Assembly: GCA_913020715.1 (NCBI GenBank)
Contig: CAJVZH010000001.1
Span: forward strand, 1-64,000
Direction of reading: 5' to 3'
Length of the DNA: 64,000 nt
DNA from: an uncultured Gammaproteobacteria bacterium
GTDB lineage: Bacteria > Pseudomonadota > Gammaproteobacteria > PS1 > Pseudothioglobaceae
This document shows, piece by piece, positions 12,072 through 24,643 of the stretch. A program made the position numbers and the translations under genes. A model generated the notes under the pieces. The model was not told the origin of the DNA. It saw nothing but the letters and a program-made list of their open reading frames with translations, and did no database searches. The first letter of the stretch is position 1. Every line of letters starts with the position of its first letter.

Positions 12072-12788
12072 ATGCTTGTGTTTAAACCAACAGCAGCACT
12101 GCTATGTTTGCTGCTTGCACTCACTGCAACCACCCCTTCCTATGCCAACACTCGTGACATATTTCTTGACGGAATCAGCGATGTAGTAAAACTCCATCTG
12201 TCAAACGGCAGTGTATACGAAGGACAGGTTGTGGCGTGCATCATAAACGACAAACAAGATGTCTGTTTTGAAGGAAGAGGTGTTTTTACCCTCGCCAATG
12301 GCTACCGCTACGAGGGGGAATTTAAAGACAATAAGCCCAACGGGAAAGGTGTATTTACATCACGTGGCGGCGCACGCTATTCGGGTGAATTCAAGGGTGG
12401 TACGTTAGACGGCCAAGGTGTTAGGCTTTATGCTGATGGCAGACATTATAAAGGCCACTACAAGGGCAGCCAACGGCATGGCTTCGGCGTGATGGTCTAC
12501 CGAGACGGGTCTCAATATAGTGGTGAATTCAAAAATGACAAGCGTGATGGCCAGGGCATTATGACCCACCCAGACGGTAGGCACTACGAGGGCAGCTATA
12601 AAAACAATAAGCGTGACGGATATGGTGTTATGACTTACCAAGATGGCGGGCTTTATCAAGAGGGATCGCGCTACGAAGGTGAATTCAAAAACGATCAGCG
12701 ACACGGTCAAGGTGTTATGGTCTATTTAGATGACGGAAGACGCTTGGCAGGCGAGTTTAAAGAGAATGTATTTATTGGCATGCAATAA
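12072..12788 (+). CDS. secreted MORN-repeat protein
   Basis: 238 residues with a signal peptide (ending TTPSYA near residue 25) and about seven MORN repeats of roughly 23 residues, of the form YEGEFKDNKPNGKGVF, between about residues 45 and 230. The repeats form an extended beta-hairpin ladder, usually a scaffold or lipid-binding surface. I cannot assign a function. An overlapping ATG at 12062 is out of frame. The gene ends in a strong terminator and is the last gene before the island boundary. Confidence 0.8.
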   Translation: MLVFKPTAALLCLLLALTATTPSYANTRDIFLDGISDVVKLHLSNGSVYEGQVVACIINDKQDVCFEGRGVFTLANGYRYEGEFKDNKPNGKGVFTSRGGARYSGEFKGGTLDGQGVRLYADGRHYKGHYKGSQRHGFGVMVYRDGSQYSGEFKNDKRDGQGIMTHPDGRHYEGSYKNNKRDGYGVMTYQDGGLYQEGSRYEGEFKNDQRHGQGVMVYLDDGRRLAGEFKENVFIGMQ

Positions 12789-13372: not shown

Positions 13373-14263
13373 ATGGCCTCAATATTGTGTAACGGTGAGA
13401 GTATTCAAAGCATTACCGCTCAATATGCCTCAAATACCACTACACCACTACTTCTCACTTTTCCACATAGTGGTGGAAATTATCCAGATGATTTTTTACC
13501 TAACCCCTCTTTATCGTTTGAGACAATAGATTTTCCAAATGATAAGTACGTTGATGAGCTTTTTGATTCTCATAGCTCATTAGGGCTTCCAGCTATAAGG
13601 GCTAATTTCCCTCGTACATACATCGATGTTAATCGTCATCAACACAATATTGACCCTAGCATGATGGAAACCCAAGAATCATGGTATGGCCATTTTTTAT
13701 CTACCGATTCTCAAAAAGAAAATGGTGCAACATTGTTCTGGTCGAAGACAAAATTAGGTCGTTATGATTTGTATGACCGTAAATTGTCTCAAGATGAAAT
13801 GAAACAACGTATAGCAACTTGTTATGTGCCATTTCATCAAGCGCTAGCATCTAGTATTGAAGATATGAAAAAGAAATTCAAGATGGCATACATTCTGGAT
13901 TGTCATTCTTATGCTGAGTTTAGCTCTAAATTTCGAGGTGGTGCGAGGCGACCGCAAATTGATGTTTTGAACCGCCACGGTCAATCCTGTAACCCTCAGT
14001 TTACTGAATGTGTTGCTGATGCTTTTTCTGATTGTGGCTATGACGTAACGCTTAATAATATTTACACAGGTGGTGAAATGTTACTTCGCTATGGTTGGCC
14101 ACAAATCAATCAGCATGCTTTGCAATTTGAAATAAGACGAGATTTATACATGGATGAAGAGTCTCGACAAAAATCAGGCCAATTTACTAAAATGCAAAAT
14201 GATTGCACCAAGGTTTTAAGCTCAGTTAAACAGCATATTGACAATTTGTGTGGCGCCTATTAA
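13373..14263 (+). CDS. N-formylglutamate amidohydrolase family protein (copy 1)
   Basis: Cytosolic zinc-dependent amidohydrolase of the FGase (HutG-like) family, which classically deformylates N-formyl-L-glutamate. Length is 296 residues. Family blocks are TFPHSGGNYPDDF (about 29-41, first metal ligand), DFPNDKYVDELF, LDCHSY near 178-183 and the C-terminal EIRRDLYMDEE near 251-261. It is plainly paralogous to the protein at 20767-21657, the blocks being collinear. No other histidine-degradation genes are near, so the substrate may be a different N-formyl or N-acyl amino acid or peptide. There is no Shine-Dalgarno sequence, and codon composition is A+T-rich compared with the flanks. Confidence 0.85.
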   Translation: MASILCNGESIQSITAQYASNTTTPLLLTFPHSGGNYPDDFLPNPSLSFETIDFPNDKYVDELFDSHSSLGLPAIRANFPRTYIDVNRHQHNIDPSMMETQESWYGHFLSTDSQKENGATLFWSKTKLGRYDLYDRKLSQDEMKQRIATCYVPFHQALASSIEDMKKKFKMAYILDCHSYAEFSSKFRGGARRPQIDVLNRHGQSCNPQFTECVADAFSDCGYDVTLNNIYTGGEMLLRYGWPQINQHALQFEIRRDLYMDEESRQKSGQFTKMQNDCTKVLSSVKQHIDNLCGAY

Positions 14264-14436: not shown

Positions 14437-15207
14437 TCAGGGGAATAACTCAAGAGCTAACTCGGGCAAAGCCAAAGACAGGAAGGCAACCACCTCGTCT
14501 TTACTTGTAATTCTAGAGTTTCTAGGAAACTCAAAATGAAGGGCTGGTTTAATCTTACTGAGAGAGCCCCTCGCCTTAGATGAGGTGGCATGGTAGTAAA
14601 TATAGTCAATATTTTCAATAGCAATTGATTGTGTTAGTTTTGTTGAGGATATGGCGTTTTGAAGTATTAGTTTAACTCGCTTCGCTTGATCGCCATTAAT
14701 GCCGACTGTCGCAATTTCGATTCTGTTTTTACTTTCGTTTCTACTATTTCCATGAACTTCCACGTAGAGTTTGGGCGCCTTATTTAACAAATATATTTGA
14801 CTTAAATACTCTTCATATACGTGCAAAGCACGAGTGGTGGGAGCTTCTTTGTTGCTTGTGCCACTGAGCTTTTCTGTTGGTCTGGTGACATTAATATAGT
14901 GGCCTTTAGAGCGAAAATCTTGAGCAATAAGGCAACTCCACAAGATATTAGTGCAGACCTCACGAACAATAATTTCGGTCATTAGGTCATACCCTCCGTG
15001 GGGTGCTGTAATTATGTAATGTGAATTGTTGTTTTGAGCAATAAACTGCCCAAACGATAAGGCCTCTTCGTGTGCAGAAACAAGGTTGTTAGAATCCGCA
15101 ACAGCCTCAATCACAAAAAAGAGAGAGTAAAAAGCGGCTACCGTAAACGCTATAAATCTAGGCCGCCTTGAGTGAGACGAAAACTCCGCTAACTTTTTGA
15201 CAAACAT
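14437..15207 (-). CDS. exported FGase-like (N-formylglutamate amidohydrolase fold) hydrolase
   Basis: 256 residues with an N-terminal hydrophobic segment (about 17-37, FIAFTVAAFYSLFFVIEAVA) that reads as a signal peptide or anchor, so the catalytic part should be periplasmic. The remaining motifs follow the FGase layout: TAPHGGYDLMTE near 68-79 (metal ligands), YVEVHGNSRNES near 148 and HFEFPRNSR near 226-234. It is much diverged from the two cytosolic copies in the same island. It lies 32 bases downstream of the ABC ATPase gene in the same direction and probably closes that operon. Processing of the imported substrate outside the membrane is an inference. Confidence 0.65.
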   Translation of the reverse strand: MFVKKLAEFSSHSRRPRFIAFTVAAFYSLFFVIEAVADSNNLVSAHEEALSFGQFIAQNNNSHYIITAPHGGYDLMTEIIVREVCTNILWSCLIAQDFRSKGHYINVTRPTEKLSGTSNKEAPTTRALHVYEEYLSQIYLLNKAPKLYVEVHGNSRNESKNRIEIATVGINGDQAKRVKLILQNAISSTKLTQSIAIENIDYIYYHATSSKARGSLSKIKPALHFEFPRNSRITSKDEVVAFLSLALPELALELFP

Positions 15208-15239: not shown

Positions 15240-16934
15240 CTATGGGTTAAACACCGGCATGGCTGACAGAAGAGATTGAGTGTATGGGCTTTTTGGTTGC
15301 TTGAAAATATTTTCGTTTGTGTTCATTTCCATAGACTCGCCATCTTTCATAACAATCACTTGGTCGCACATTTGACGAATTACCGCTAGATCATGACTCA
15401 CAAATAATAAAGTTAGTGAGAACTGCTCTTGAAGATCCTTTAGTAAATTAAGCAGACTCGCCTGCACAGAAACATCTAGGGCCGAAGTTGGTTCGTCACA
15501 AAAAATAAAGTCAGGCCTATAACTTAGTGCCCTTGCAATACCTATTCTTTGCCGTTCGCCACCAGAAAAGGCATGGGGCAACTTGTCGGCATCTTGTTTT
15601 TTTAGGCCAACCAGAGACATAAGGTCTTGAGCTAATGACTTGGCTTTATTGCCATCAATTAGCTTATGTGCTTTTAAACCATAAGTAATATTTTCTCCTG
15701 CACTCATGCGCGGGTTAAGGGATGAGTATGGGTCTTGAAAAATACATTGCATTGACAGACAATGTTTCTGACGCTCTTTATTATCTATTATTGATTTAAG
15801 GTCTTTGCCTCGGTATATGACACTGCCCTCGGTTATGTCTTCCAGGCCTAGAATCATGCGTCCAATGGTTGATTTTCCAGAGCCTGACTCTCCAACAATT
15901 CCAACTGTTTCTCCGCGATTAACCGTAAAACTTACATTATTAACAGCTGTAAACAAGTCTTTTGGTTTGAACATACTAGAGGGAGTAATAAAGACTTTTG
16001 AAAGATTACAAACCTCTAATATAGGGTCCTTAGTTAAAGTCTCTGATTTTTCTTTTGCGCGTAAGTATTGAAGGCCTGCGGATGTGTCCTCTGCGTTGTC
16101 TTGTTGATTTAATGCGAAACGGTGAAGGCGTTTTTCTATAAGAGGCACTGATGCCATTAAGGCTTTAGTGTAGTCCTGTGTTGGCCTCTGAAGCACGCTA
16201 CTTGTTACCCCTTGCTCAACATGTTTGCCATTCTTTAAAACGTAAACATAGTCACATGTTTCGGCTACAACACCAATATCGTGAGTAATCAGAATAATCG
16301 CCACTTGCTCCTGTTTGCTAAGCTTGATTAGTGTTTGTAGCACCGATTGTTGCACAGTAACATCTAGAGCAGTTGTTGGCTCGTCTGCAATAATAAGCTT
16401 TGGTTTGGCGGCGATAGCTATGGCAAAAACTATTCTTTGGCAAAGCCCGCCCGACAATTGATGCGGGTACTTCTTTAAGCGATCTTCTGCAAAGCTAACA
16501 TCTGATTGCTCTAGCAGACCAATGGCGTGTTTATAAGCGCTTTTCCCGCGCATACTGGTGTTTGCCTCTATGGCCTCTATAACTTGCTCACCTATTGTAA
16601 GCACCGGATTAAGAGCGGTCATCGGATTTTGGTATATGTAACCAACCTCTTCGCCGCGTATAGATGTATATTGCTCCTCACTAAGACCAATAAGAGGCTT
16701 GTCGAGTAATGTGATATCGCCGCTTACCACTTTTGCCGGTGGATCCAGAAGCCCGAGAACGGCTTTACCAATGGTTGATTTACCAGCACCGCTTTCACCG
16801 ACTATTCCTATAATTTGGCTCGTGCTTAAGTTAATTGAAACTCGATCAAGAGCCTTAAACTCGTCCTTTCCCTCGGGCCCACAAGGATAAGTAACCGTTA
16901 AATCCTTAATTTTTAGAAGAGGTGTCTTGCTCAT
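15240..16934 (-). CDS. fused double ATP-binding protein of a dipeptide-type ABC importer
   Basis: 564 residues comprising two ABC ATPase domains in tandem, equivalent to DppD plus DppF joined as in YejF or GsiA. Domain 1 has Walker A GESGAGKST (about 43-51), LSGGLCQRI and Walker B LIIADEPTTALD. Domain 2 has Walker A GESGSGKST (about 346), FSGGERQRIGIARAL and IFCDEPTSALD. Each is followed by an oligopeptide-type C-terminal extension (SVLQRPTQDYTKALMASVP and its counterpart). The ATG overlaps the permease stop, so it is cotranslated with the permease genes at 16931-18811. Confidence 0.93.
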   Translation of the reverse strand: MSKTPLLKIKDLTVTYPCGPEGKDEFKALDRVSINLSTSQIIGIVGESGAGKSTIGKAVLGLLDPPAKVVSGDITLLDKPLIGLSEEQYTSIRGEEVGYIYQNPMTALNPVLTIGEQVIEAIEANTSMRGKSAYKHAIGLLEQSDVSFAEDRLKKYPHQLSGGLCQRIVFAIAIAAKPKLIIADEPTTALDVTVQQSVLQTLIKLSKQEQVAIILITHDIGVVAETCDYVYVLKNGKHVEQGVTSSVLQRPTQDYTKALMASVPLIEKRLHRFALNQQDNAEDTSAGLQYLRAKEKSETLTKDPILEVCNLSKVFITPSSMFKPKDLFTAVNNVSFTVNRGETVGIVGESGSGKSTIGRMILGLEDITEGSVIYRGKDLKSIIDNKERQKHCLSMQCIFQDPYSSLNPRMSAGENITYGLKAHKLIDGNKAKSLAQDLMSLVGLKKQDADKLPHAFSGGERQRIGIARALSYRPDFIFCDEPTSALDVSVQASLLNLLKDLQEQFSLTLLFVSHDLAVIRQMCDQVIVMKDGESMEMNTNENIFKQPKSPYTQSLLSAMPVFNP

Positions 16935-17836
16935 TGTTGATCCTGAGATTTTAAGTATGGGTTGTTGTGTTCACGAACACGGTCAGCAACTACGTTAATA
17001 CACAGAACTAACAAGACCAAAACTGTACCTGGAAAAATACTAATCCACCACTTACCAGACAACAGGTAGTCGTTTCCGTTAGCAATCAACAGCCCCAATG
17101 ACGGCTCGGTGATTGGCACGCCCACACCGAGGAATGACAACGTTGCCTCGGCACCTATACAGCCAGAAAGTGACATTGGCACCATAACTAACACCGGTGC
17201 AATACTGTTTGGGAGAAGAAAATGCAGCATAATTCTCCAGCGTGGAAGTCCTGATATTTCCGCCGCGTCGATGTACTCTTTTTTCATTTCCGAGAGGGCG
17301 GAAGAACGAGTTAGTCTTGCTTTGCTAGCCCAAACACCAATAATAAGTGCGTAAATAATCTTGTCTACTCCGGTTCCGAGTATGGCCAGCATCATGAGAG
17401 CCAGCAAGATGCCTGGAAAACTAACTTTTAAATCAACGGCACGCATAATAACACTCTCTACCCAGCCACCTTTGAGCGCCGCTAAAAGTCCAAGCACTAC
17501 GCCAATTGAAGTTCCAATGGCTACAGCCATAAACGCAACAAATAAACTTAATCGCAAACCGTACATCACTGTTGACAGGATGTCGCGCCCCACTGCGTCT
17601 GTACCAAGCCATGCAGTTGTACCGTTACCAAGCTTGGATAATGGAGGCAGAAGGCCGTCCATGATATCTAAAACCATCAAATCGTAAGGGTTTTGTGGAG
17701 CAATCCAAGGCGCAAAAACGGCAATAAATACAAACAATATAAACCCAATCAAACCGGCGATAGCAATTGGGTGGCCCGAGAAAATTGGCTTGAGCGTCTC
17801 GCCCAATATTGATAATTTTTCTATAAATTTACTCAT
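16931..17836 (-). CDS. dipeptide-type ABC transporter permease (DppC-like)
   Basis: Inner-membrane permease of 301 residues with the OppC/DppC N-terminal segment (ending APWIAPQNPYDLM), the WLGTDAVGRDILSTVMYG block and a BPD_transp_1 domain. The cytoplasmic EAA loop reads AAEISGLPRWRIMLHFLLPN near residues 196-215. Six membrane segments are evident. It lies six bases after the DppB-like gene and overlaps the ATPase gene by four bases, which gives a tight operon. Confidence 0.93.
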   Translation of the reverse strand: MSKFIEKLSILGETLKPIFSGHPIAIAGLIGFILFVFIAVFAPWIAPQNPYDLMVLDIMDGLLPPLSKLGNGTTAWLGTDAVGRDILSTVMYGLRLSLFVAFMAVAIGTSIGVVLGLLAALKGGWVESVIMRAVDLKVSFPGILLALMMLAILGTGVDKIIYALIIGVWASKARLTRSSALSEMKKEYIDAAEISGLPRWRIMLHFLLPNSIAPVLVMVPMSLSGCIGAEATLSFLGVGVPITEPSLGLLIANGNDYLLSGKWWISIFPGTVLVLLVLCINVVADRVREHNNPYLKSQDQQ

Positions 17837-17842
17837 AGTTAG

Positions 17843-18811
17843 CTACTTTTGGTGGCGAATACGTGGATCTAGAAATGCATACATGACATCCACAATAAAA
17901 TTAATAAAGACAAACATCAAGGTAATTAAGATTAGATAAGCAACAACAACGGGTCTATCCACCATATGAATGGAGTCTAGTAGTAATTTACCAATACCTG
18001 GCCAAGAAAATATTGTTTCAGTCACAGTAGAGAACGCTATAAGCCCTCCAACCTCTAAGCCAGTGATGGTAACAATTGGAATTAAAATATTGCGCAACAA
18101 GTGTCGTCTAATGATTCGACTCCTACTTATACCCTTTGCTCTGGCATATACCATGTACTCTTGATACAAAATCTCTTGAGTCCCAGACTTAGCAAGTCTT
18201 TGCTGCATACAGATTTTGTAAATCGCGAGATTAACTGCCGGGAGGGCCATGTGGCGCAAGCCGTCAAGCGATAACAAAGACCACTCGATACCAAACATTG
18301 TGTTGGTGAGACCTCTGCCAGAGGCTGGCAGCCACTGCAAAAAAACTGCAAACACCATGATTAAAATTATAGCTTGCCAAAAATTGGGTGTCGAATAACC
18401 CACCGTTGTGAAAAAACTTATTACTTTTGAGGCTCGAGAGTTGCTTTTTATGCCTGAAAATATTCCAAGAGGAATTCCAATGCCCAGGCCAATAACCATT
18501 GCCAGAAGGGCGATTTCTAGGGTCGCAGGAAGACGCTCAGTAATGAGATCTAGCACTGGCCTATTGTAGACAAACGAGGTGCCAAAGTCCCCTTTAACTA
18601 TATCGCTTGCAAAATTAAAGTATTGCTCAGGAAGTGGCTTGTCAATCCCCAGCTCAATAGCCAAGTCGATTTTGTCCTGCTCGGTCCAATCCTCACCCGC
18701 CAACATTTCAACTGGATCACCAACTACGTACATACCAAGAAAAACGATTAACGACATGATGACTGCCAATATACAGCTTTGCCAAAGACGCTTACAAATG
18801 TATGTAATCAT
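17843..18811 (-). CDS. dipeptide-type ABC transporter permease (DppB-like)
   Basis: 322-residue partner permease. It starts MITYICKRLWQSCILAVIMS, a typical DppB first helix, followed by the periplasmic segment ELGIDKPLPEQYFNFASDIVKGDFGTSF. The EAA loop is ARAKGISRSRIIRRHLLRN near 219-237, and it ends in the usual FLDPRIR motif. It is separated from the solute-binding-protein gene by 204 bases that include a terminator-like hairpin, which probably lowers its expression relative to the binding protein. Confidence 0.93.
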   Translation of the reverse strand: MITYICKRLWQSCILAVIMSLIVFLGMYVVGDPVEMLAGEDWTEQDKIDLAIELGIDKPLPEQYFNFASDIVKGDFGTSFVYNRPVLDLITERLPATLEIALLAMVIGLGIGIPLGIFSGIKSNSRASKVISFFTTVGYSTPNFWQAIILIMVFAVFLQWLPASGRGLTNTMFGIEWSLLSLDGLRHMALPAVNLAIYKICMQQRLAKSGTQEILYQEYMVYARAKGISRSRIIRRHLLRNILIPIVTITGLEVGGLIAFSTVTETIFSWPGIGKLLLDSIHMVDRPVVVAYLILITLMFVFINFIVDVMYAFLDPRIRHQK

Positions 18812-19015: not shown

Positions 19016-20617
19016 CTAGTTTTTGCTCGCCATATCAGCAAACGTGCGTTCATCCGGGCGACCAGCAACAGTTATGTCGCTTGTATGAGCCCAGGTGCTA
19101 TGCTGGTAGTACAGAGGGATTCCTGGTAAATCCTCAACCGCAACACGCATGGCTGCTTGGTTATACTCCAAGGCTTTGGCCTCGTTTGTTTCCACTGCCC
19201 ATGCCGTCATAGCTGCATCAAACTCTGAACTAGAGTAGTTAGAGTAGTTACTACCACCTAGATTTAGAGGCTTATTCTTAGTACCAAACGCATAGGAAAT
19301 CATCTGTGCAGGACCTTGAGGGTGACCCCATCCATACATAAATACACCTAACTCACGAGCTGAGCGGCCCTTTCTAAATAAAGACCAAGGTTCAGCCACC
19401 AAATTCACTGTGATACCAATTCGAGTGAAGTACTGAGCTATAGCCTGACCAACTCGGGTGCCGTTTTGATACTTTCCAGATGGCATTCTGAGGTCGATAG
19501 TTATACTGTCAGCGTAACCAGCTTCAGCTAGTAATTTCTTTGCTAACTCAGGATCGTACGCCATATCTGGCATTGAGGAATCTGCGCCATCTTGATAGCT
19601 TGGTGCAAACTGACTGGCAACGGTTGCATTGCCATTAAACAACTTGTCTACAATTGCCGCTCTATTGATAGATAATGAAAGTGCTTTTCTTACCCTTATG
19701 TCTTTCAGCGGGTTACTTCCGTCTGCTGTTGACACACCTGGTGCTACATCACTACCCACATCCAATATCAAGAAAATAGACCTCCAAGAAGGCTCAGTTG
19801 AGAAACTATAGGCAGGGTTGCCTTCCAAAGCCAGCAGGTCTTCACCAGTTGGGTTCTCAATCAAGTCGTAATCTCCAGCAAGCAATCCAGCCATACGGGC
19901 GCCAGAGTTCTCTACCGAACGAATTTCTACACGCTCCCAGTTACCTGGCTCACCCCAATACTCATCGTTACGCACCAAGTCGGCATCGCCGGTGATGGAG
20001 AACGATTCGTATTTGTATTTACCTGTTCCATTAGCGTATTTACCAGATTCAAACTCAGCTTTAGTAGGGTATCGAGTAATACCGCAGTCGCCAGTATTGT
20101 CAAACTTAAGTGTCGGCCCAAGATCGGCATCACCACTATCTAGGATAGACAGAGATTTAAGTTTTTGGATGAGTATTGGGTACAGGCCTACAGTTTTGAA
20201 GGCTACGGTATAGTCATCAATCGCCACCACGTCAGTTACTGGGCCCATCGCACTTGTGAGCATGTTTTTCTTTCCGTCGACCCTATACATCATACGGCAC
20301 GAGCTATAAACAACATCTTCAGCAGTGAAGTCAGCACCATTATGGAATTTAACACCCTCCCTAAGGTTGACTACAAGTGTCGTGTCATCGGTCCAGCCGT
20401 AAGACGTGGCCAACAGCTTGTCATTGGTACGCGAAACAAGACCTTCATAAATGTGTTCATTTAATGAGGCAGTTGCAGAGGCGCTGCTTTTAAATGGGTC
20501 TATCGTTGAAGGTGAGACCTGAAACGCCATTCGTAACGTGTCAGCATAGACACTACTTGCCATCAAAGCGGTACAAATACCGGTGAGCCAAGCAGTTTTG
20601 TTAATTGTAAATTTCAT
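19016..20617 (-). CDS. periplasmic peptide-binding protein of the ABC importer (SBP family 5)
   Basis: Solute-binding protein of the Opp/Dpp type (SBP_bac_5). The start is placed at the ATG at 20617, because it gives a signal peptide (cleaved near SVYA/DTLRMAF) and is preceded by AGGAG eight bases upstream. The frame open further upstream is not supported. Mature features are STIDPFKSSASATASLNEHIYEGL, the VVNLREGVKFHNGADFTAEDVVYS block and AGYADSITIDLRMPSG. Total 533 residues. Ligands of this family include dipeptides, oligopeptides, opines, glutathione and nickel chelates. The sequence does not tell which. Confidence 0.92.
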   Translation of the reverse strand: MKFTINKTAWLTGICTALMASSVYADTLRMAFQVSPSTIDPFKSSASATASLNEHIYEGLVSRTNDKLLATSYGWTDDTTLVVNLREGVKFHNGADFTAEDVVYSSCRMMYRVDGKKNMLTSAMGPVTDVVAIDDYTVAFKTVGLYPILIQKLKSLSILDSGDADLGPTLKFDNTGDCGITRYPTKAEFESGKYANGTGKYKYESFSITGDADLVRNDEYWGEPGNWERVEIRSVENSGARMAGLLAGDYDLIENPTGEDLLALEGNPAYSFSTEPSWRSIFLILDVGSDVAPGVSTADGSNPLKDIRVRKALSLSINRAAIVDKLFNGNATVASQFAPSYQDGADSSMPDMAYDPELAKKLLAEAGYADSITIDLRMPSGKYQNGTRVGQAIAQYFTRIGITVNLVAEPWSLFRKGRSARELGVFMYGWGHPQGPAQMISYAFGTKNKPLNLGGSNYSNYSSSEFDAAMTAWAVETNEAKALEYNQAAMRVAVEDLPGIPLYYQHSTWAHTSDITVAGRPDERTFADMASKN

Positions 20618-20732
20618 TGTATTGCTCCTTTTTTTATTGTTATTGGCCCCAATGGCACTTCGAGTGTTTGGGGGCATTTTCGATAATAATCACTCAATCT
20701 TCATACTTCAATCTTATTAACCCAAGCTTTAT

Positions 20733-21761: not shown

Positions 21762-21797
21762 AAAAAGTAAATATCTATTTATACATTATTGCAGCTT

Positions 21798-22751
21798 ATG
21801 GCTAAAAATCAAAAAATTAATCGGTTTAAGTATATTGAAGCCTTCTCTGAGGTTATTTCAAGTGGTAGTGTTTCAGCTGCTGCGAAAAATCTAGGGGTCT
21901 CCCAACCTGCGGTTAGTCAGTTGATCAAAAAACTAGAAGATGCTGTTGGTGTGCCGTTATTCATACGCCGAAATGGCTTGATTTTCCCAACGGCTAGAGC
22001 TGACAGTTTGCGTGACGATGTTGAGCAATTATTAACGCAGCTCGATAAGATTCAAATGCAGCTCAATTTTGGGCGCTCGAATGAACTTACGCTTAACCCC
22101 CTTAGATTTACTGCAAGCTTGTCATTTGTAAACGAGATTATGCCTCTGGTAATTGCTCATATCCACAATCTCAAGCCAGAAATGTTGTTCTACGTTAACT
22201 CACTACCGGTTGCCGGCATGACGCAAGCACTATTGGGAGGTAACGTTGACTTTGCCCTTAATACTAAGCAGCCTGACCATTCAAACATCATTAGTAAAAA
22301 ACTGCTTTCGGCCAGAGAAGTTTTTGTGATGCCCACAAACCATCCGCTGGCGGCCAAATCAAAATTGTCGTTAGAAGATATAGACAATGAAAAAATGATT
22401 CTTTCCTCCAAGACAGACCCTTCTTATGAGACGCACAGAGCCTTATTGTATAAACACAGAGTGCGCTTTCAGAAGGTCTTAGAATCCCCGTTTTCCACTC
22501 TATCCTTATCAATGATTCCTCAGTTACAAGCCTTATCAATAACCAATGTATTGATTGCAGAACTTGTGTGTCAACATAATGATGACATTACTTGGCGATA
22601 TGTGGATGAATTCACACACGAAACAGATTTTTATTTATCAATGCCGCCATGGCTTAATGAATCAACAACAGAGAAACTCTTTTTAAGTAGTTTTAAAGAC
22701 TGCTTAAAAGAAACAACTGACAAACTCGATATTGAAGTTATTGACACTTAA
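21798..22751 (+). CDS. LysR-type transcriptional regulator
   Basis: 317-residue LTTR if started at the ATG at 21798. A TTG three codons upstream is possible. The N-terminal winged HTH includes FSEVISSGSVSAAAKNLGVSQPAVSQLIKKLE at about residues 14-45, typical of the family, then the linker helix and an inducer-binding domain (LRFTASLSFVNEI onward). It is divergent from FGase copy 2 across the palindromic operator. By position it is the likely regulator of the island's uptake and hydrolysis genes. The effector is unknown. Confidence 0.93.
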   Translation: MAKNQKINRFKYIEAFSEVISSGSVSAAAKNLGVSQPAVSQLIKKLEDAVGVPLFIRRNGLIFPTARADSLRDDVEQLLTQLDKIQMQLNFGRSNELTLNPLRFTASLSFVNEIMPLVIAHIHNLKPEMLFYVNSLPVAGMTQALLGGNVDFALNTKQPDHSNIISKKLLSAREVFVMPTNHPLAAKSKLSLEDIDNEKMILSSKTDPSYETHRALLYKHRVRFQKVLESPFSTLSLSMIPQLQALSITNVLIAELVCQHNDDITWRYVDEFTHETDFYLSMPPWLNESTTEKLFLSSFKDCLKETTDKLDIEVIDT

Positions 22752-23587: not shown

Positions 23588-24442
23588 TCACTGATTAACT
23601 TTTATCGCCTGATAGTGCTCATAAATTGACCGCCACACCTCTCCAACCATGCCTGATCCGACCTTAAGCCTGTCCACAAGAGTGATAGGAACAACTTCGC
23701 GCGTTGAACTGGTTACCCAAACCTCGTCTGCTTCAAGCAAGTCATTTTTGCTAAATTCTTTTTCAACTGTTTGTATACCGCAGGCAGTTGCACAGCTCAG
23801 AACAGCCTCTCGAGTAATGCCTGGCAATATGTAGCTACCTTTTGGGTGTGTATATAGGCACTCATTTTTTACAATAAATACGTTAGAGCTGGAGCATTCA
23901 GTAACAATCCCATTTCGACATAAAATAACCTCTTCTATCTCTAGATTTTTAGCCATCTGGGCATACATAATATTTGGTAGCAGTGAGGTGGCCTTTGTAT
24001 TGCACTGACTCCAACGAATATCATCTTGAGTGATTGCTTCAGCACCTTTAAGAAGCTCTTTTTTGGATCGAGTATTAAACGCCGAGGATTGGATGTAGAT
24101 TGTTGGATCAATATCACCATAAGTGTGCTTTCTATCTTGGTCACAGCCCCTAGTAATTTGCAAATAGACAGCTTGATTGTTGTTCTCTGGATTAAGCTCA
24201 ATCACTTTATGAATAATGGATTTCCACTCGTTGAGAGAATAGGGGTTTTGAATTTGAATTGATTTAAGCCCTTTTTGCAAACGACTAAGGTGCGAGTCAA
24301 GACCAAAAACATGTCTATTGTACGACGGAAATACCTCGTAAACGCCATCACCGAATAGAAAGCCTCGATCCATAACGGAAACAAAAGCTTTGTTTTTATC
24401 CACAAAACTGCCATTTAAATAAACTTTAGGTTGGTTAGGCAT
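23588..24442 (-). CDS. D-amino-acid transaminase (class IV PLP aminotransferase)
   Basis: Fold-type IV aminotransferase most like D-alanine aminotransferase, which interconverts D-amino acids and 2-oxoacids. The ATG at 24442 gives 284 residues starting MPNQPKVYLNGSFV. An open extension upstream lacks family similarity. Markers are VMDRGFLFGDGVYEVFPSY near 24-42, the PLP lysine in CNTKATSLLPN near 146, and TECSSSNVFIV and LPGITREAVL in the cofactor-phosphate region. An L-branched-chain or aminodeoxychorismate lyase role is less likely given the DRGFLFGDG and RHTYG-like segments. D-amino acid handling suggests peptidoglycan-derived or bacterial peptide substrates. Confidence 0.85.
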   Translation of the reverse strand: MPNQPKVYLNGSFVDKNKAFVSVMDRGFLFGDGVYEVFPSYNRHVFGLDSHLSRLQKGLKSIQIQNPYSLNEWKSIIHKVIELNPENNNQAVYLQITRGCDQDRKHTYGDIDPTIYIQSSAFNTRSKKELLKGAEAITQDDIRWSQCNTKATSLLPNIMYAQMAKNLEIEEVILCRNGIVTECSSSNVFIVKNECLYTHPKGSYILPGITREAVLSCATACGIQTVEKEFSKNDLLEADEVWVTSSTREVVPITLVDRLKVGSGMVGEVWRSIYEHYQAIKVNQ

Positions 24443-24643
24443 ATGGGCCACTTTAGTAAAACAAACGCCTACAGAATATACACAACAGGAAATACCTGCA
24501 ATATTATTAGGGGTTGTTAGGGACATATAAGCTATTGTTATGCCCTCCCTCCCACAAGAAACGAAATCTGGATTTCTATGTGAACAGCTGTCAAGATTGC
24601 TCTAAACTAGCAACGGTATGAAAACAACCTCAGGATAATAATT

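Follow-up and report, generated by a model that had tools for sequence, protein, structure and literature searches.

Does a protein that appears to leave the cytoplasm belong to the FGases? The stretch of DNA analysed here, 64,000 nucleotides from an uncultured marine gammaproteobacterium and hereafter called the window, carries at 14437..15207 on the minus strand a single open reading frame that begins with ATG and specifies a protein of 256 amino acids (the target). An earlier note had read this protein as a diverged member of the FGase fold with a signal peptide, perhaps of a new periplasmic subfamily. The question is whether it is a true FGase with an added export signal, a member of a related family, or a protein of another kind that resembles these by coincidence.

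Our preferred reading, to which we assign a probability of about 0.5, is that the target is an exported zinc amidohydrolase of the superfamily of FGases, gamma-PGA hydrolases and M14 carboxypeptidases, too diverged for the models of the named families. Membership of that broad fold superfamily, taken by itself, is likely. Placements as an FGase, as a gamma-PGA hydrolase or as an Amidase_3-type amidase overlap with the superfamily reading, so that the odds given below do not sum to 1.

The gene and its probable export signal

The target gene starts 32 bp downstream of the stop codon of an ABC transporter ATPase gene (15240-16934). Between this genome and two other genomes of the genus, the mature part of the protein gives dN/dS values of 0.15 and 0.09; it is therefore the product of a real gene whose mature part is under purifying selection. 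We annotate it as an exported zinc-amidohydrolase-like protein. For residues 1-37 the values are 0.78 and 1.25, calculated on only about 26 synonymous sites, which, set against the low values of the mature part, fits an N-terminus that is constrained in its general character only.

These 37 residues (15097..15207, minus strand) resemble a signal peptide: a 15-residue hydrophobic core with a mean Kyte-Doolittle value of 2.33 is preceded by a net charge of +4, and small residues stand at -3 and -1 of a possible cleavage site between AVA and DS. A positive start, a hydrophobic core and a small-x-small-like site recur in all four family members, including the one in genome G370 that is 33% identical to the target, and such an N-terminus is thus present in two distant lineages. 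A crude export rule, which was built on the N-terminal features of the target and misses many exported proteins (12 of 30 Amidase_3 proteins are positive), is positive for all four family members (window, L005, L004 and L006), for 1 of 21 FGases and for 0 of 6 gamma-PGA hydrolases. Judged from these sequence features, the target is very probably exported, and the hydrophobic N-terminal segment described in the earlier note is borne out. The two cysteines of the mature domain, C85 and C92 (14932..14955, minus strand), are its only ones and are invariant in 4/4 members, which would suit a disulfide formed outside the cytoplasm.

Distribution of the family

Three of the 83 genomes searched in its order carry the target. 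They all belong to one genus (this genome, G000, together with G023 and G030), of which 29 genomes were covered. Identity to the target is 92% in G030, 74% in G023 and 33% in G370, the last being the one further clear relative in a spread of 369 genomes across the class (E 9e-35). Weak matches in G125 and G088 from the same spread contain internal stops and were put down to chance. Another in G186 (46 residues, E 0.003), from a second 369-genome search of the class of G370 that was probably the same draw as the first, was also dropped as chance. In the order of G370, one of three genomes has a relative. A search of 398 genomes of the phylum gave no relative beyond the window's own, and none turned up in phages, plasmids or viral contigs, the one phage match having E 0.6; FGases, too, were not found on the viral contigs. 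As sampled here, the family comprises four sequences in two independent lineages.

In G370 the relative lies on the strand opposite to its neighbours, flanked on one side by two glutathione-synthetase-like ATP-grasp genes and on the other by a MATCAP gene; a second MATCAP gene stands further up, so that this cluster (L009) holds two genes of each kind. No PF05013 match was found in G370, which is 93% complete. Of 28 loci with an FGase gene that were drawn from the class, three have a MATCAP gene within the 1.5 kb flank.

Conserved residues and the families they resemble

Alignment points to four blocks on the minus strand: PHGGYD (residues 69-74; 14986..15003), NVTRP (residues 106-110; 14878..14892), EVHGNS (residues 150-155; 14743..14760) and FEFPRNSR (residues 225-232; 14512..14535). 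The three blocks named in the earlier note, PHGGYD, EVHGNSR (150-156) and EFPRNSR (226-232), are indeed present. P69, H70, G71, Y73 and D74 are invariant in all four family members, as are the E, H and G of the second of these three blocks and the E and last R of the third; the set H70, D74, R109, H152, E226 and R232 is invariant throughout. NVTRP is replaced by NVNRP in L004 and L006, and E78 is absent from L006. We propose that H70, D74 and H152 are the ligands of a zinc ion, the part of D74 being a guess; that E226 may act as the general base that activates water; and that R109, perhaps with R232 at E+6, would grip a carboxylate of the substrate.

The reading closest to the earlier note is that the target is a true, diverged FGase with an acquired signal peptide, which would work in the periplasm and strip amino acids of formyl or other small acyl groups. 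When MAFFT aligned the target with 21 FGases without constraints, H70, D74, R109, H152 and E226 fell on conserved FGase columns. Column shuffles also matched five columns in 2/200 and 7/445 cases, and hit exactly these residues in 0/445 (445 of 700 planned shuffles were counted). The order H, D, R, H, E is that of the FGases, the R109 of NV[TN]RP, D74 and the helix ahead of the second His align with them, and NR, found in 20 of 21 FGases, corresponds to [NT]R in the target family. However, the spacing between His and Asp is 4 in the target and about 22-27 residues in FGases, and the C-terminal E-x5-R, seen in 0/21 of them, is that of the gamma-PGA hydrolases. When the target was aligned with the two FGases of the window alone, the second His motif was misplaced. 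It should be noted that the FGase set derives from 28 loci, of which 27 were extracted (the partial L035 was omitted) and six dropped: L018, L027 and L036 had been read from the wrong strand, L014 had a long false N-terminus, the match of L032 was cut short, and L039 was divergent and without the motifs, its omission making the FGase columns look more conserved.

A second reading takes the target as a periplasmic gamma-glutamyl hydrolase akin to the gamma-PGA hydrolases (PghP/PghL, PF05908), cutting gamma-glutamyl peptides before uptake. According to the PghL study, the zinc ligands are His41, Glu46 and His102, Glu165 is catalytic and Arg171 binds substrate (PMC6506827). Aligned with six gamma-PGA hydrolases, the target places H70, the acid, H152, E226 and R232 on these ligand, catalytic and substrate residues. 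The APHG block with a nearby acid, the HG at the second His and the Glu with Arg at +6 (E-x5-R in 6/6 sampled members) are shared. Yet the acid is an Asp at +4 in the target and a Glu at +5 in PF05908, the substrate-binding block LH[ILV][TS]S is replaced at the same alignment place by NV[TN]RP, and an export signal was found in none of the six. The match of 9 of 58 conserved columns, reached by 24/200 shuffles, is not clearly above chance, and an alignment with one viral gamma-PGA hydrolase misplaces the motifs.

M14 carboxypeptidases carry the zinc motif HxxE. The target lacks it, having H70-G-[GS]-Y instead, although the plan of its putative catalytic site (His, acid, Arg, His, Glu) resembles the one on which PMC6506827 compares PghL with carboxypeptidase A.

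By its sequence, then, the target looks like a mosaic: its Arg recalls the FGases, its APHG block and its E-x5-R end recall the gamma-PGA hydrolases, and there is some resemblance to Amidase_3. The structural neighbours of PghL are PghP and next the FGase structures 2odf and 2q7s (PMC6506827); this indicates that gamma-PGA hydrolases and FGases share a fold, so that a mosaic residue set is not contradictory.

Library and profile searches

No library match of the target family lies above the cut-off of any family. Pfam gave 0 families at E<=10 for the window protein. The PF05013 gathering score of 28.9 bits was not reached by the target, whereas its two neighbouring FGases score 200 and 196.2 bits. 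PF05908 (gathering score 22 bits) is matched below its threshold by one of the four members, by elimination L005, at E 0.04; its bits are put near 14.0, the value that gives E 0.054 elsewhere. Other weak matches, each of a single member, are Amidase_3 (PF01520; L006, E 0.054, 14.0 bits against a gathering score of 27), DUF3986 (E 0.036) and a PHROG endolysin (E 0.013). L046 and L047, which are weak PF05908 matches, look by eye like short-chain dehydrogenases and were dropped.

In profile comparisons with hhalign, the gamma-PGA hydrolases were the sole family above the controls (29.3, maximum of 40 controls 16.8), but this match spans just 12 columns around APHGG. The score against FGases, 18.3, is inside the control range (maximum of 40 controls 20.8). 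With family HMMs, the score of the window protein was reached by 11 of 1000 shuffles for gamma-PGA hydrolases, 69 for FGases and 139 for amidases; for L006 the respective counts were 15, 1 and 6. The products of the two p-values are 0.00025, 0.0003 and, for Amidase_3, 0.0025. Ten control clusters of open reading frames gave 0.0008, 0.009 and larger values, so that the three related families beat nine of the ten, while the tenth beats Amidase_3 and approaches the other two. These controls are 10 of 12 clusters from the collected loci; the two that were set aside carry motifs of the FGases or the target, and some of the ten may be antisense frames. The profile statistics for placing the target in a family are weak.

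Taken together with the residues above, these results make a true FGase unlikely: of the reading in the earlier note, export and a residue set like that of zinc hydrolases are supported, whereas membership of the FGase family is not, given the lack of a Pfam match and the hhalign score inside the controls. A gamma-PGA hydrolase proper is likewise improbable.

Structure models

AlphaFold was run on three-row alignments and returned a mean pLDDT of 47.3 for the full-length target and 46.2 from residue 46 on. The models are too poor for deciding the fold or the metal geometry. By eye, the order of elements in the first model may fit the superfamily: beta63-67, alpha75-88, beta93-95, alpha123-140, beta146-152, beta162-168, alpha172-187, beta196-200, alpha210-218, beta222-226 and alpha236-254. 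The His and Glu motifs of this model are found where strands end. Foldseek (first model) and VIA-align (both models) returned biotin ligases, aspartokinase regulatory domains and other unrelated folds, with Z below 7, and neither an FGase nor a gamma-PGA hydrolase was among the matches listed (best 50 each). The amidases that appear, 7rag against the first model (Z 4.9, rmsd 4.7, 134 residues) and 4rn7 against the second (Z 5.1, rmsd 4.5, 127 residues), are at noise level, since unrelated folds tie their Z values at comparable coverage (1txn, 133 residues; 2hmf, 127). As the models are poor, the fold-search lists carry no information.

Other folds and amidases

Could the target be no zinc enzyme at all, but an exported protein with a different fold whose motifs match by coincidence? 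No family cut-off is passed, the poor models match other folds, and the motif statistics are modest. Moreover, the lowest E-value of all belongs to an NCBIfam model of a single-stranded DNA-binding protein (E 0.0033, 17.8 of 230 bits, residues 157-235), and the same residues match the PDB sequences of such proteins at E 0.04. This match is not worse than the library matches that favour the superfamily reading; it was taken as chance because a four-row profile does not recover it. Against a coincidence stand the invariance of the matched His, Asp, Arg and Glu residues in all four sequences, the fact that the same five residues arose in 0/445 shuffles, and the nine of ten control clusters outscored by the three related families. 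We regard this explanation as rather improbable.

Amidase_3 belongs to the broad fold superfamily of FGases, gamma-PGA hydrolases and M14 carboxypeptidases, and its second zinc ligand is a Glu in the first helix. A diverged N-acetylmuramoyl-L-alanine amidase of this kind, acting on muropeptides or peptidoglycan, would share with the target a probable export signal (by the crude rule) and, by eye, HGG-x-D, VTR, IHG and PAxxxE blocks in similar order, to which the weak L006 and endolysin matches may be added; but it is very unlikely, as the segment from residue 74 to residue 106 lacks a Glu common to the four members, the alignment with 30 amidases matches 8 columns (reached by 18/100 shuffles), the window score was reached by 139 of 1000 shuffles, hhalign gives 18.0 (control maximum 18.5), the structural hits tie with unrelated folds, and another Amidase_3 gene exists in the genome.

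The transporter operon and its neighbours

Upstream of the target, on the same strand, lies an operon headed by an FGase gene (FGase1, PF05013; 20767..21657), followed by genes for a solute-binding protein (SBP_bac_5; 19016..20677), permease 1 (17843..18811), permease 2 (16931..17836) and a double ATPase of the oligopeptide/dipeptide type (15240..16934). The binding protein and the ATPase were identified by library matches and the permeases by eye; we take permease 1 to be DppB/OppB-like and permease 2 to be DppC/OppC-like. On the plus strand, a LysR-type regulator gene (21789..22751) diverges from the operon, and a gene for a class-I glutamine amidotransferase-like protein (PF00117; 22862..23566) follows, both by library match. 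A second FGase, FGase2 (PF05013 by Pfam; 13373..14263, plus strand), is convergent with the target. Neither operon FGase qualifies as HutG, the scores being 116.8 bits (FGase1) and 102 bits against a cut-off of 278.75. In G030, a separate protein exceeds that cut-off (294.3 bits) and lies in what by eye is a hut-like cluster.

The core of FGase1, binding protein, two permeases and ATPase is found in the carriers of the target and in G010, G017, G027, G029, G021 and G011, the ATPase gene of the last being shorter (509 aa). In these six, the sequence reads past the ATPase gene and no target stands behind it. The third carrier, G023, has its target on another contig, behind a gene that by eye resembles an NADH:flavin oxidoreductase, and the contig with its operon ends inside the ATPase gene. 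The statement that the target ends the transporter operon hence holds for this genome and G030, and fails for G023 and the six other operons. As a fixed member of the operon it was rejected; it is an add-on. Since six operons lack the target and G370 lacks PF05013, transporter and FGase are not its obligate partners.

FGase2 occurs in the same 3 of 29 genomes of the genus as the target, and FGase1 in 10 of 29. G023 carries the target, FGase2 and the transporter operon on a separate contig each. Its transporter shares 96-97% identity with the transporters of G010, G017 and G029, genomes in which neither the target nor FGase2 was found, and 84-85% with those of G000 and G030. The operon of G023 thus groups with non-carriers, apart from G000 and G030, and the pair of target and FGase2 appears at two distinct positions in the operon tree. 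This co-occurrence, which favours an FGase-related role for the target, points to a shared function; it amounts to about two events, as G000 and G030 are sisters, and several non-carriers are incomplete (G010 77%, G017 81%, G029 89%). Between G000 and G023, dS is 0.46 for FGase2, 0.97 for the target and 0.96 for the binding protein; with FGase2 lower than the other two, joint movement is not required. The low value of FGase2 relative to the binding protein hints at a transfer of FGase2.

Two neighbours would suit gamma-glutamyl chemistry and thereby a gamma-PGA-hydrolase-like activity: the class-I glutamine amidotransferase-like gene near FGase1, which stands directly ahead of it in G023, G017 and G009 (the contig of G009 ends in FGase1), and a GGACT-like gene behind the ATPase gene of G027 (L105, 9412-9852). 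The operon of G027 also contains an aminotransferase gene (L105, 3002-3853) that is 63% identical to a D-amino-acid-transaminase-like gene at 23588-24526 of the window; together with the GGACT-like gene it hints at amino acids of the D or gamma-glutamyl kind. A Streptomyces protein of the FGase family has been predicted to cut gamma-glutamylglycine (PMC6529630; also PMC9397018), which would fit a gamma-glutamyl hydrolase as well.

Some further genes deserve mention. In G023 (L090, 7197-9172) and G006 (L089, 7504-9498), an FGase gene is followed by what by eye is a carboxylate-amine ligase-like gene, split into two open reading frames in G006. Near the target of G030 there is a gene for an MttB-family methyltransferase (L005, 8955-10475; PF06253 628 bits, trimeth_pyl 327.7 of 525 bits). 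In the window, 12072-12788 encodes a signal-peptide-like protein of repeated Y-x-GEFK-type units, MORN-like by eye.

Proposed role and significance

If the target is an exported zinc amidohydrolase, as we prefer, it would act in the periplasm, where C85 and C92 may be joined in a disulfide. With H70, D74 and H152 binding zinc, E226 activating water and R109, perhaps aided by R232, holding a carboxylate, it might cut an amide beside a free carboxylate, for example in a blocked amino acid or in a gamma-glutamyl or N-acyl peptide. The SBP_bac_5 transporter could then import the product, and the cytosolic FGase1 and FGase2 could complete its processing. This division of labour, with periplasmic cleavage, import and cytosolic finishing, is possible, although we would not count on it.

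The target family is probably a small exported branch of a known superfamily that has so far gone undescribed; in a literature search on N-formylglutamate amidohydrolase, the titles and abstract openings described no exported FGase. A more far-reaching proposal is tentative and, on balance, unlikely: that the family, an FGase/gamma-PGA-hydrolase mosaic of exported zinc amidohydrolases, forms the periplasmic half of a two-compartment pathway by which blocked (N-acyl or gamma-glutamyl) amino acids would be scavenged in the ocean, and whose cytosolic half would be a dedicated FGase together with the dipeptide-type ABC transporter. If true, FGase-type chemistry would take place outside the cytoplasm, paired with a transporter and a cytosolic FGase, and there would be a testable route by which bacteria with small genomes use blocked amino acids.
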